Positions 53,274 to 56,767 of a stretch of 64,000 nt of DNA are shown here, piece by piece. Source of the stretch: Vogesella indigofera (GTDB taxonomy: Bacteria > Pseudomonadota > Gammaproteobacteria > Burkholderiales > Chromobacteriaceae); the NCBI RefSeq assembly GCF_003633895.1, contig NZ_RBID01000014.1:124001-188000 (forward strand), in the 5' to 3' direction. Position 1 is the first letter of the stretch; each line of letters opens with the position of its first letter. Both the position numbers and the translations under genes were made by a program. Below the pieces are notes generated by a model that was given only the letters and a program-made list of their open reading frames with translations, searched no databases and was not told the DNA's origin.

Positions 53274-53501
53274 TCAGGGGCCGACGTAGCGCAGCAGCAG
53301 GCGGCGCAGGCGCGGCGCCCCGATCAGCACCAGCGGGAAGGCGCAGCTCCACGCCAGCAGCCAGGCGCGCAGCCAGCGGCCGACAAAGCCGGCGTCGAGG
53401 CCGGTGTTGACCGCGGTGAGGATGCCCGACATCAGGAAGGCCATGTAGCAGGACATCAGCAGCGCGAATAGCAGGGTGTGTTTGCGGGAAGGAGGGGACA
53501 T
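53274..53501 (-). CDS. DUF2798 small membrane protein
   Basis: 75 residues with two hydrophobic helices: HTLLFALLMSCYMAFLMSGILTAVNTGLDAGFVGRWLRAWLLAWSCAFPLVLIGAPRLRRLLLRYV. The S(C/M)xMAxxMSxxxTxxN(T/L)G and W...AW..AFPxxL pattern is that of DUF2798. The function of the family is unknown. Monocistronic. The 231 bases beyond its start, to nsrR, hold no gene I can support. Confidence 0.85.
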   Translation of the reverse strand: MSPPSRKHTLLFALLMSCYMAFLMSGILTAVNTGLDAGFVGRWLRAWLLAWSCAFPLVLIGAPRLRRLLLRYVGP

Positions 53502-53732: not shown

Positions 53733-54182
53733 TCAGGACAGCGCGCGCGGCGACATGCGGTGCAGGATGGCGATGGCCTGGCTGGTCGGCGTGCGTACCG
53801 CATCGGCCAGCGTGTAGCGGTCCAGCGCGCTGAAAAAGGCCTGCAGCGCCTCGTCCAGCATCCCTTTCAGCTGGCAGCTGCCGCGCAGCTGGCACGGGGG
53901 CTCGGCGCAGTCGATCAGCTCGGTGATGCCTTCCAGCTGGCGGATCACCTGCCCCAGCGGGTAAAGGTTGGCCGCACGCGCCAGCGCCAGGCCGCCGCCC
54001 TTGCCACGGGTGGTGACCAGCCAGCCCTGCTGCGACATGAAGTGCACCACCTTGACCAGATGGTTGCGCGACACGGCAAAGCGCTCGGCGATCTCGCCGA
54101 TGGTGACCGGCGTCGCGCGCGGCTCGTCGGTGAGGTACATCAGGACGCGCAGGCCAAGGTCGGTGAAGTGGGTCAGTTGCAT
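53733..54182 (-). CDS. nsrR: Nitric-oxide-sensing repressor NsrR (Rrf2 family)
   Basis: 149 residues from ATG 54182 (MQLTHFTDLGLRVLMYL), the standard NsrR start. The HTH is TIGEIAERFAVSRNHLVKVVHFMSQQGWLVTTRGKGGGL. Three cysteines with the C-x4-C-x5-C spacing (DCAEPPCQLRGSC) are the [2Fe-2S]/[4Fe-4S] ligands that NO destroys. It lies 52 bases downstream of hmp on the same strand, so the sensor and detoxifying enzyme probably share a transcript. An exact 13-mer (53964) encodes AANL. Confidence 0.93.
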   Translation of the reverse strand: MQLTHFTDLGLRVLMYLTDEPRATPVTIGEIAERFAVSRNHLVKVVHFMSQQGWLVTTRGKGGGLALARAANLYPLGQVIRQLEGITELIDCAEPPCQLRGSCQLKGMLDEALQAFFSALDRYTLADAVRTPTSQAIAILHRMSPRALS

Positions 54183-54234: not shown

Positions 54235-55443
54235 TTATAGCGCGGTGCCACCGGTGCCGAAGGCCTCGGCGTGAATGCGCGCGGCGTCGACGCCCAGCGC
54301 CAGCAGTGCCTGCTGCTGCGCCTGCATGAACGGCAGCGGGCCGCACAGGTAGTAGTCGGCGTCGGCGACGATCATGTCCGCCGTCAGCGTGATGCGGCCG
54401 GCGTGATGGTAGTGCACGCCCGGCTGGTCCTCGGCGCGCGGCGCTTCATAGTAGATGGCGCTGTGTAGCTGCGGATACTCGGCTGCCAGATTGGCGACGT
54501 GCTGGCGGAAGGCGTGCACGCTACCGTCGCGGCAGGCGTGCAGGAAGCGGATCTGGCGCGGGCTGTCCTGCTGCAGCAGCTGTTCCAGCATTGCCAGCAG
54601 CGGCGTGATGCCGACGCCGCCGCTGATCAGCACCACCGGCGTGCTGCGTTCCTGGTGCAGGAAAAAGTCGCCCATCGGCGGCGCCAGGTCCAGCAGTGCG
54701 CCGGCCTCGATTGTGTCGTGCAGCACATTGGACACCATGCCCGCCGGGGTGCTGGCGCTGCCGCCCTCACGCTTCACCGAGATGCGCAGCGCCGTGCCGC
54801 CGGGTGCCGCCGACAGGCTGTACTGCCGCGGCTGCATCATGCCCAGCGCCGGCACCGCCAGCCGCACCGACACGTACTGCCCCGGCAGGTAGTCCGGCAG
54901 CGCGCCGCCGTCGGCCGGCTGCAGATAGAAGGAGGTGATTTCCGCACTCTCCGCCACTTTGCGGCCAACCTTGAACGCGCGCCAGCCGCTCCAGCCGCCG
55001 CGCTGGGTGGCCGCCTGCTGGTACAGCTTGCTTTCCTCGGCGATCAGGATGTCGGCCAGCTGGCCGTAGGCGGCGGCCCAGGCGGCGATCAGCTCGTCGC
55101 TGGCGGCGTCGCCCAGCACCTCGCGGATCGAGGCCAGCAGGTGACCGCCGACGATCGGATAGTGCTCGGCGCGGATGCCGAGGCTGGCGTGCTTGTTGGC
55201 CACCAGCGTCAGCACCGGTGCCAGTACCGACGGATCGTCGATGTGCTCGGCGTAGGCGGCCACCGCCATCGCCAGCGCCTGTTGCTGGCTGCCGGCCTGC
55301 TGGTGGCCCTGGTTGAAGATCTGCTTCAGTTCCGGATTGTGCTGGAACATGCGCGCGTAGAAATGGCGGGTGAGGGTGACGCCGTGTTGTTTCAGGATGG
55401 GGGCGGTGGCCTTGACCAGTTGACGGGTGTGCTGATCCAGCAT
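54235..55443 (-). CDS. hmp: Flavohaemoglobin, nitric oxide dioxygenase
   Basis: 402 residues, three domains. The globin (1-140) has its proximal His in NKHASLGIRAEHY and distal B10 Tyr in RHFYARMF. The FAD domain has PRQYSLSAAPGG (RxYS motif). The NAD domain has VVLISGGVGITPLLAMLEQL and DYYLCGPLPFM. It oxidises NO to nitrate with O2 and NADH. It is followed by nsrR and preceded by an NsrR-like half-site. The exact 13-mer at 54960 encodes FKVGRK at the globin/FAD junction. Confidence 0.95.
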   Translation of the reverse strand: MLDQHTRQLVKATAPILKQHGVTLTRHFYARMFQHNPELKQIFNQGHQQAGSQQQALAMAVAAYAEHIDDPSVLAPVLTLVANKHASLGIRAEHYPIVGGHLLASIREVLGDAASDELIAAWAAAYGQLADILIAEESKLYQQAATQRGGWSGWRAFKVGRKVAESAEITSFYLQPADGGALPDYLPGQYVSVRLAVPALGMMQPRQYSLSAAPGGTALRISVKREGGSASTPAGMVSNVLHDTIEAGALLDLAPPMGDFFLHQERSTPVVLISGGVGITPLLAMLEQLLQQDSPRQIRFLHACRDGSVHAFRQHVANLAAEYPQLHSAIYYEAPRAEDQPGVHYHHAGRITLTADMIVADADYYLCGPLPFMQAQQQALLALGVDAARIHAEAFGTGGTAL

Positions 55444-55460: not shown

Positions 55461-55479
55461 GTGTAAAAAATACATGTTT
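55461..55479 (-). promoter_or_regulatory. NsrR-like half-site in the hmp promoter
   Basis: On the - strand AAACATGTATT resembles the NsrR half-site AAGATGYATTT at most positions; the second half is degenerate (TTTTACAC). It lies 18-36 bases before the hmp start, where a repressor would block transcription. Confidence 0.45.
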
Positions 55480-55558: not shown

Positions 55559-55583
55559 AAACATGTACAAATAATACATGTTT
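55559..55583. promoter_or_regulatory. NsrR-like palindrome before the small membrane protein
   Basis: Nine-base perfect arms AAACATGTA (55559-55567) and TACATGTTT (55575-55583) with a 7-base spacer. The same arm recurs in the hmp promoter 80-100 bases away. It ends 30 bases before the ATG at 55614. NsrR is the obvious candidate because its gene is adjacent. Confidence 0.6.
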
Positions 55584-55613
55584 AATTTTCTCGTGTCAGC
55601 CCCGGAGCCACTC

Positions 55614-55829
55614 ATGTCGCACACCATCGAAACCACCGCCCGCCGCGCCGCCGTCACCGCCCTGTTGCTGTTCGGCGGTTGCCTGTATCTGGCCTACCAG
55701 GAAAGCGTGCCGCTGGCGCTGGGCTGGGTCATCGCCGCCCACCTGCTGCTGACGCTGTCGGCCGGGGTGTTCAAGCTGTCGGTGGTGGTGGTGATGGCCT
55801 GCCGTCACGGCCGCCGCCATGCAATGTGA
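55614..55829 (+). CDS. Small two-helix membrane protein, probably NsrR-controlled
   Basis: 71 residues from ATG 55614 (MSHTIETTARRAAVTALLLFGGCLYLAYQESVPLALGWVIAAHLLLTLSAGVFKLSVVVVMACRH), chosen for the CGGAG site upstream. Two membrane helices, a lone Cys in each half and a basic end. No family recognised. It is divergent from hmp and shares its palindromic element, so a role in NO response is inferred from context alone. Confidence 0.65.
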   Translation: MSHTIETTARRAAVTALLLFGGCLYLAYQESVPLALGWVIAAHLLLTLSAGVFKLSVVVVMACRHGRRHAM

Positions 55830-55936: not shown

Positions 55937-56767
55937 ATGCTGAGCCTTCACACCAACGCCGCATCCCTGTTCACCAAAAGCAACCTGAATACCAGCCAGA
56001 ACTCGCTGACGACCTCGATGACCCGGCTGGGTACCGGTTATCGCATCAACTCGTCGCAGGACGATGCCGCCGGCTTGCAGATCGCGACCCGTCTGGAAGC
56101 GCAAAGCCGTGGCATGACCGTGGCGATGAAGAACGCGCAGAACGGTATCAGCCTGTTGCAGACTGCCGACGGCGCGCTGTCCGAAGTGTCCAACATCATG
56201 CTGCGTATGAAAGACCTGGCCACCGAAGCGTCTACCGCTACCGCCACCGCTGCCGACAAGACCGCAATGAAGGCTGAATTCGATGCGCTGGGCGCCGAAA
56301 TCACCAACATCATGACCAACACCAAGTTCGGTGGCGAAGCGCTGCTGACTGGCGGCAAGCTGGCCGCGGCGATGAAGTTCCAGGTGGGTGCCACTGCGGC
56401 CGAAGCCTACACCTTCAACGCCTCCGCCGACCTGACCGCCATCGGTACCGCCAACACCGCGCTGATCGCCGGCGACCTGTCGATTGCCGACCCAAGCGCC
56501 GTGATCGCACTGGCTGACACCGCCGTTGCCGCCGTTGGCACCCTGCGTTCGTCCATCGGTGCCGGCGCCAACCGCCTGAACCACATCAGCAACAACCTGG
56601 CCAACGTCAACAACAATACCCAGATCGCCAAGTCGCGCATCATGGACACCGACTACGCCAACGAAACCGCCAACATGACTTCGCGTCAGATGCTGATGCA
56701 GGCCGGCACCTCGATGCTGAAGCAGTCCGGTTCCATCGGTCAGCTGGCCATGTCGCTGATGCAGTAA
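55937..56767 (+). CDS. Flagellin, short lateral (LafA)-type
   Basis: 276 residues. The conserved N-terminal D0/D1 is MLSLHTNAASLFTKSNLNTSQNSLTTSMTRLGTGYRINSSQDDAAGLQIATRLEAQ, and the C-terminal D1/D0 is IDxTDYANETANMTSRQMLMQAGTSMLKQSGSIGQLAMSLMQ-like. The variable D2/D3 centre is almost absent, as in LafA lateral flagellins. An AATACGGAG ribosome site and sigma-28-like promoter precede it. It is the filament subunit of the system encoded downstream. Confidence 0.93.
   Translation: MLSLHTNAASLFTKSNLNTSQNSLTTSMTRLGTGYRINSSQDDAAGLQIATRLEAQSRGMTVAMKNAQNGISLLQTADGALSEVSNIMLRMKDLATEASTATATAADKTAMKAEFDALGAEITNIMTNTKFGGEALLTGGKLAAAMKFQVGATAAEAYTFNASADLTAIGTANTALIAGDLSIADPSAVIALADTAVAAVGTLRSSIGAGANRLNHISNNLANVNNNTQIAKSRIMDTDYANETANMTSRQMLMQAGTSMLKQSGSIGQLAMSLMQ

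Follow-up and report, generated by a model that had tools for sequence, protein, structure and literature searches.

Does the short gene that lies divergently beside the flavohemoglobin gene hmp of Vogesella indigofera belong to the nitric-oxide (NO) response, and what might its product do there? The locus was examined in the window, the whole 64-kb stretch of DNA that was analysed. With the short gene designated SMALL, the relevant features are:

53733-54182, minus strand: nsrR-type gene for an Rrf2 regulator with a CX4CX5C motif (Pfam Rrf2, 1.8e-32)
54235-55443, minus strand: hmp, NO-inducible flavohemoprotein (NCBIfam NF009805, 555.1 bits, cut-off 432)
55471-55479, minus strand: isolated arm AAACATGTA within the leader of hmp, 27 bases before its start codon
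55559-55583, no strand: predicted NsrR-type operator, AAACATGTA-N7-TACATGTTT, common to the divergent genes hmp and SMALL
55604-55607, plus strand: GGAG, likely ribosome-binding site of SMALL by direct reading, 6 bases upstream of the ATG
55614-55829, plus strand: SMALL, 71-codon ATG open reading frame whose predicted product, 71 residues long, is a membrane protein with two helices from a PpyR-like family

SMALL, its neighbours and the shared palindrome

The sequence-only reading had described a 71-residue two-helix protein, and the open reading frame was indeed found at 55614-55829. An in-frame ATG at 55578, which overlaps the palindrome, is a less likely start, because homologues of another genus align from the later position; this alignment and the GGAG motif both favour 55614. 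Hydropathy peaks at approximately residues 9-28 and 34-62 indicate two transmembrane helices, and the AlphaFold2 model contains helices at residues 2-30 and 34-70, with a mean pLDDT of only 71.4 and a pTM of 0.37. Hydropathy, the charges of the ends and this modest model suggest that SMALL forms an inner-membrane hairpin with both basic ends in the cytoplasm.

The window protein has no match at E ≤ 1 in Pfam-A or NCBIfam, and nine other members of the family gave weak matches below the cut-offs of these databases, or none. A profile of 19 members (A3) has no match at E ≤ 1 in the PDB. In the alignment of 19 members the sole invariant residues are His43 and Lys54, both in helix 2, which share one face of that helix since they are 11 residues, or three turns, apart. 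The homologues in V. margarita and V. alkaliphila are 94 and 93% identical to SMALL, and members outside Vogesella and the nearest genus show 21-32% identity. For the four Vogesella copies dN/dS ranges from 0.26 to 0.77 (six pairs), values that rest on 9-19 differences and lend weak support to selection on SMALL.

The regulator encoded next to hmp has the NsrR model as its best NCBIfam match, at 126.6 bits, below the cut-off of 182; its CX4CX5C motif resembles the spacing in E. coli NsrR. Directly downstream of nsrR, and transcribed from its strand, lies a gene for a small, uncharacterised DUF2798 protein (53274-53501, minus strand, Pfam 5.9e-23). Like SMALL it appears to be a small membrane protein near nsrR (its membrane nature was judged by eye), but it belongs to a different Pfam family. 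On the other side, SMALL is followed by a flagellin gene (55937-56767, plus strand), as it is at two other Vogesella loci (L071 and L072) and not at L073, where another gene follows.

The 25-base palindrome reported earlier was recovered at 55559-55583 as AAACATGTA-CAAATAA-TACATGTTT. The pattern AACATGTA-N7-TACATGTT occurs once in the window, both at 0 and at up to 3 mismatches, and was matched in 0 and 2 of 100 shuffled windows, respectively. Its 9-base arm occurs three times in the window against 0.10 expected, twice as the arms of the palindrome and once at 55471-55479 in the hmp leader, in agreement with the earlier claim of an arm in the hmp promoter. Among the matches listed for the 3.6-Mb genome the palindrome is the sole perfect copy, and the next best need two mismatches. 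Allowing as many as 3 mismatches shows no genome-wide enrichment of the pattern (63 matches per strand versus 126 for the reversed control), and two-mismatch NsrR-like sites are likewise not enriched as a class (7 versus 9 in the control).

NsrR-like sites were scored with the 16-position pattern AANATGYATN5ATRCATNTT. Its core derives from the published gATGyAT-N5-ATrCATc, as given in passages of PMC1274295, and its AAN/NTT flanks were added after sites of this group had been seen, so that the scores lean towards the group. The window palindrome agrees with this pattern at 15 of 16 positions and carries, at a promoter, the NsrR core ATGyA-N7-TrCAT. The stretch around the hmp-leader arm lies within an imperfect site of 13-14/16 in five of six related promoters (L068-L073) and scores below 13 in the window and in L072. 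The 23-base core of the palindrome is located 31 bases upstream of SMALL and 116 bases upstream of hmp. The palindrome is identical in the three other Vogesella genomes with SMALL and is present in altered form in three genomes of another genus. Furthermore, 26 of 27 palindrome bases are kept before hmp in a Vogesella genome without SMALL (G192). Upstream regions of hmp at loci of the host's bacterial family score at least 14/16 in 48 of 52 cases, compared with 88 of 3000 random pieces from those same loci, some of which may be the hmp promoters themselves.

Since the palindrome is kept without SMALL and such sites are general before hmp, it is by itself no proof of control over SMALL. These two observations and the distances to both genes are the reasons why it is best called a predicted operator common to the divergent pair. 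The earlier view that it precedes the gene is correct as to position, with the correction that it lies between hmp and SMALL and is best not regarded as a site of SMALL alone. The same retention in G192 and the same generality of hmp upstream sites would also fit an operator that serves hmp only, with SMALL a constitutive gene or an irrelevant neighbour. This must be judged a very improbable alternative; it is opposed by the stand-alone family members in Vibrio and in pseudomonads, which have NsrR- or NorR-like sites of their own, and by the position of SMALL inside the gene row nsrR-trHb-SMALL-hmp at six loci.

As in the NsrR regulon of beta- and gammaproteobacteria, hmp stands beside an Rrf2 gene with a site matching the core of gATGyAT-N5-ATrCATc; no small two-helix protein is named as a member in the text passages on the published regulon (Rodionov et al. 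2005, PMC1274295). Among the points that speak against assigning SMALL to this regulon, the window regulator scores below the NsrR cut-off, and a norV-like gene of the genome is accompanied by another Rrf2 gene. This second Rrf2 gene (L257, C1:729114, Pfam 4.8e-33) is divergent from the gene for a NorV-like flavodiiron-flavodoxin-rubredoxin protein, which contains ODP, flavodoxin and rubredoxin domains and has two NsrR-like sites (14/16 and 13/16) around its start.

Elsewhere in the same genome (L258/L083, C1:747485), an NsrR-like site (14/16) is followed by a flavin/NAD reductase gene and a small globin gene (Bac_globin, 21.9 bits, cut-off 21). In other bacterial families, a globin of this type shares a gene row with SMALL and hmp.

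Distribution and loci outside the Pseudomonadaceae

Among 61 genomes of the host's bacterial family, SMALL is clearly present in seven (E < 1e-9), and an eighth (G074) has a distant member with an NsrR-like site in front. These carriers comprise four of 13 genomes of the same genus, three of one other genus and one of a third. Of the 33 genomes of this family matching at E ≤ 1, 26 had only weak matches; two such loci were read, of which L023 resembles a member and L022 was dropped, its frame containing a stop.

In the order, the search with a single sequence matched six of 300 genomes. Four of these came up only at E 2e-5 to 3e-4, resembled members when read by eye and were used as profile seeds. 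An eight-member profile (A1) picked out 13 of the 399 genomes searched in the order, including five new, distant ones (G360, G112, G021, G077 and G032, E 5e-19 to 6e-14), and a larger profile (A2) added one further genome, G584, at E 8e-12 among 369 genomes of the class. Further A2 matches at E 0.003-0.006, in four genomes and at another site of the own genome, were dismissed as chance on inspection. With the G584 protein as query, five records of the plasmid collection were found, from Vibrio and Pseudoalteromonas; the locus counts given below take in four of them and leave out H62 (Pseudoalteromonas NC201). A tblastn search of the plasmids with the L058 member found nothing. In Cupriavidus necator, a 'hypothetical protein' of 71 residues encoded upstream of hmpA was rejected as not membrane-like.

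Profile E-values are circular for loci that were already inside the profile; G584 and the 44 pseudomonad loci described below were outside the profiles that found them. Absences are soft in the samples of order and class, where at most 14 candidates were scored per genome, and absence of SMALL beside hmp was judged within genome stretches around hmp. Where SMALL was sought, it is present in 8 of 50 hmp-bearing genomes of the host's family; the corresponding figures are 2 of 29 for the class sample and 39 of 96 for the pseudomonads. The distribution is sporadic, and SMALL is dispensable in view of these fractions.

The set of loci from outside the Pseudomonadaceae numbers 22 (the window, L058-L073, L085 and L088-L091), with neighbours called by BLAST against reference proteins and open reading frames bounded from stop to stop, so that neighbouring frames overlap. 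All adjacency counts for hmp refer to loci found through SMALL, not through hmp. In 19 of the 22 loci hmp lies within approximately 1.5 kb, the exceptions being L060 (nsrR, no hmp found), L089 and L090, and nsrR is nearby in 17. Six loci (L061, L062 and L064-L067) have the order nsrR-trHb-SMALL-hmp. At these loci two globins and the hairpin protein stand behind one NsrR-like site. The trHb of L066 stays below the Pfam cut-offs (Bac_globin 0.011, Protoglobin 0.0074) and matches the group III truncated haemoglobin structure 2ig3 at 2.7e-6. In three other loci (L085, L088 and L091) norR is divergent from SMALL-nnrS-hmp; the annotated record of L091 lists norR, the 'hypothetical protein' WP_308362761.1, an NnrS family protein and hmpA. 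By Pfam, L085 encodes NnrS as well as a sigma-54 activator, and L066 an Rrf2 protein.

The promoter sites are of two kinds. An NsrR-like site of at least 14/16 precedes SMALL or its gene row in all 17 nsrR-type loci, with 0.00-0.05 expected per approximately 6-kb region from shuffles. The Vibrio campbellii locus L089, where no NO gene was recognised nearby, has a 16/16 NsrR-like site 13 bases upstream of SMALL. NorR-like GTCAN3TGAC sites occur twice each in L085, L090 and L091 and once in L088 (0.004-0.010 expected); sigma-54-like promoters were found in L090 and L091, and were sought and not found in L085 and L088. Near SMALL in L090 (Vibrio sp. THAF190c) no NO gene was recognised either, except one about 5 kb away for a reductase that, by eye, looks Hcr-like. 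Altogether, by genes or promoter sites, a link to an NO regulon is present in 22 of 22 non-pseudomonad loci.

Pseudomonadaceae and the likeness to PpyR

The Pseudomonadaceae were entered through a genome found via OprF (1 of 339 genomes), G607, whose own hmp has no SMALL beside it. Profile A3 identified 44 loci in 39 of 96 Pseudomonadaceae genomes at E ≤ 1.9e-12, the next match being at 0.009. Their contexts comprise norR, hmp and nnrS in 24 loci, hmp only in six, nnrS only in two, and neither hmp nor nnrS in twelve, so that hmp is adjacent in 30 and nnrS in 26 of the 44. A triple NorR-like site, with spacings of 15-32 bases, is present once per locus in 24 of the 44 (16 of the 24 full norR, hmp and nnrS clusters, none of the six loci with hmp only, one of the two with nnrS only and seven of the twelve others), and none was present in one shuffle of all 432 kb. 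By genes or sites an NO link is found at 39 of the 44 loci; the remaining five, L226, L231, L232, L239 and L253, have none and are a real exception. At three of these (L231, L239 and L253) SMALL lies beside a gene for a Pyr_redox_2 oxidoreductase.

The norR-hmp-SMALL-nnrS loci fit the gene order described for P. aeruginosa in passages of two papers, namely fhp, ppyR (PA2663) and PA2662 (NnrS) (PMC9112911, PMC3299288), and the family is for this reason PpyR-like by position. According to the same passages PpyR has two transmembrane regions and is suggested to be a membrane NO sensor that acts through NO signalling. PA2662 and PA2663 also occur in a gene table of an acidified-nitrite microarray (PMC6546240). 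When a profile was built solely from 20 hmp-linked members of the pseudomonads, the window protein came first among the 877 open reading frames of the window, at E 3.5e-4, with the next at 0.99. When the profile was applied to 18 member loci, the window, L072 and L089 gave the weakest true matches (E 0.002-0.009, best other open reading frame 0.38), the Vogesella proteins being the weakest except for L089. The name PpyR stands for the 'psl and pyoverdine operon regulator' of Pseudomonas aeruginosa.

By gene order the family seems to include PpyR, and on this ground SMALL of the window is most plausibly a divergent protein of the PpyR-like kind. The earlier statement that the protein could not be assigned remains valid in that no Pfam or NCBIfam model fits, and gives way where gene order suggests a PpyR-like family. 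SMALL shares with PpyR the two predicted helices, an NO-dioxygenase neighbour and, in most pseudomonad members, an NnrS neighbour. Unlike PpyR, SMALL of the window is divergent from hmp rather than downstream of it, and has an NsrR-type site rather than one for NorR/FhpR, no NorR-like site and no nnrS gene beside it; it does not share an operon of hmp and nnrS under NorR or FhpR. NnrS itself (PF05940) is, like SMALL, a membrane protein of NO regulons and often stands in the gene row of SMALL, but it is large (371 model positions), and the small proteins scanned gave no match to PF05940.

By analogy with the proposal for P. aeruginosa, SMALL could be a sensor in the membrane through which genes for exopolysaccharide, motility or biofilm respond to NO status. 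PpyR is hypothesised to be a sensor and lies in an operon with PA2662 downstream of fhp (PMC9112911 and PMC3299288, in part), 24 of the 44 pseudomonad loci have such an fhp-ppyR-nnrS-like neighbourhood, and the flagellin gene follows SMALL in three of the four Vogesella carriers. We regard this role as unlikely, since the members have about 70-95 residues with no output domain recognised, the family adjoins hmp in genera unrelated to Pseudomonas, and no flagellin open reading frame was found in the fourth Vogesella locus (L073) or in the three of the other genus (L068-L070).

Similarly doubtful is a role as assembly or accessory subunit of a different membrane protein that meets NO, for instance NnrS or a terminal oxidase, in which case adjacency to hmp would reflect shared regulation only. 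In favour of such a role, nnrS is adjacent in 29 of 66 loci (the 26 pseudomonad ones, L085, L088 and L091), and the window genome has nnrS elsewhere. However, BLAST with a single reference protein detected nnrS in none of the 17 nsrR-type loci, and the 4.1 kb surrounding nnrS of the own genome contain no NsrR-like site of at least 12/16.

Possible role in nitric-oxide defence

The loci compared make it evident that members of the family repeatedly adjoin hmp, and that the NO regulator predicted from neighbouring genes and promoter sites is one or the other of two unrelated ones. Recurrence in unrelated contexts would have contradicted the earlier proposal that SMALL belongs to the NO response; instead, homologues recur in NO contexts in 22 of 22 non-pseudomonad and 39 of 44 pseudomonad loci, with hmp adjacent in 19 and nsrR plus an NsrR-like site in 17 of the former, and the proposal is supported. 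Further support comes from the stand-alone copies that keep their sites, NsrR-like in L089 and NorR-like in L090 and in seven of twelve pseudomonad copies. We therefore favour, with a probability of roughly 0.8, the reading that SMALL is a local member of the predicted NsrR regulon and belongs to an hmp-linked family of membrane hairpins under two NO regulators. It is probably a conserved, uncharacterised part of NO defence.

NsrR contains an iron-sulfur cluster, damage to which by NO releases repression. From the motif and this established behaviour, NsrR bound to the shared palindrome would repress both hmp and the divergent SMALL. Damage to its cluster by NO would then lead to both products being made, and the SMALL product would insert into the inner membrane as a hairpin with its two ends in the cytoplasm.

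NO and O2 concentrate at membranes. No neighbour is commoner than hmp (49 of 66 loci, compared with 29 of 66 for nnrS), and for this reason our first choice for the function, a tentative one, is that of a small membrane partner working next to flavohemoglobin at the membrane. Such a partner might conceivably, for example, dock Hmp at the membrane or protect a haem or quinone enzyme. His43 and Lys54, on their common face of helix 2, would then be the candidate working residues.

A protein of this kind has been described in one species, where it is known as a regulator of biofilm. The predicted NsrR-controlled branch, the stand-alone Vibrio copy with its NsrR-like site and the invariant His/Lys pair appear undescribed in the literature that could be searched; no link between PpyR and NsrR was seen among the papers listed, which says little.

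The genes of NO defence are well mapped, yet a small membrane protein recurs beside hmp that matches no Pfam or NCBIfam model as tested, and it does so in several groups: the host's family, other families of its order, Vibrio and Pseudoalteromonas, and the Pseudomonadaceae. On odds somewhat short of even, the family as a whole may be a part of aerobic NO detoxification that has gone unrecognised, is kept under both NsrR and NorR and acts with flavohemoglobin at the membrane through the invariant His and Lys. The effects of PpyR on biofilm and pyoverdine would then be secondary to changed NO handling. If SMALL is indeed PpyR-like, a protein described as a biofilm regulator of one species would have a broader primary role in NO stress.
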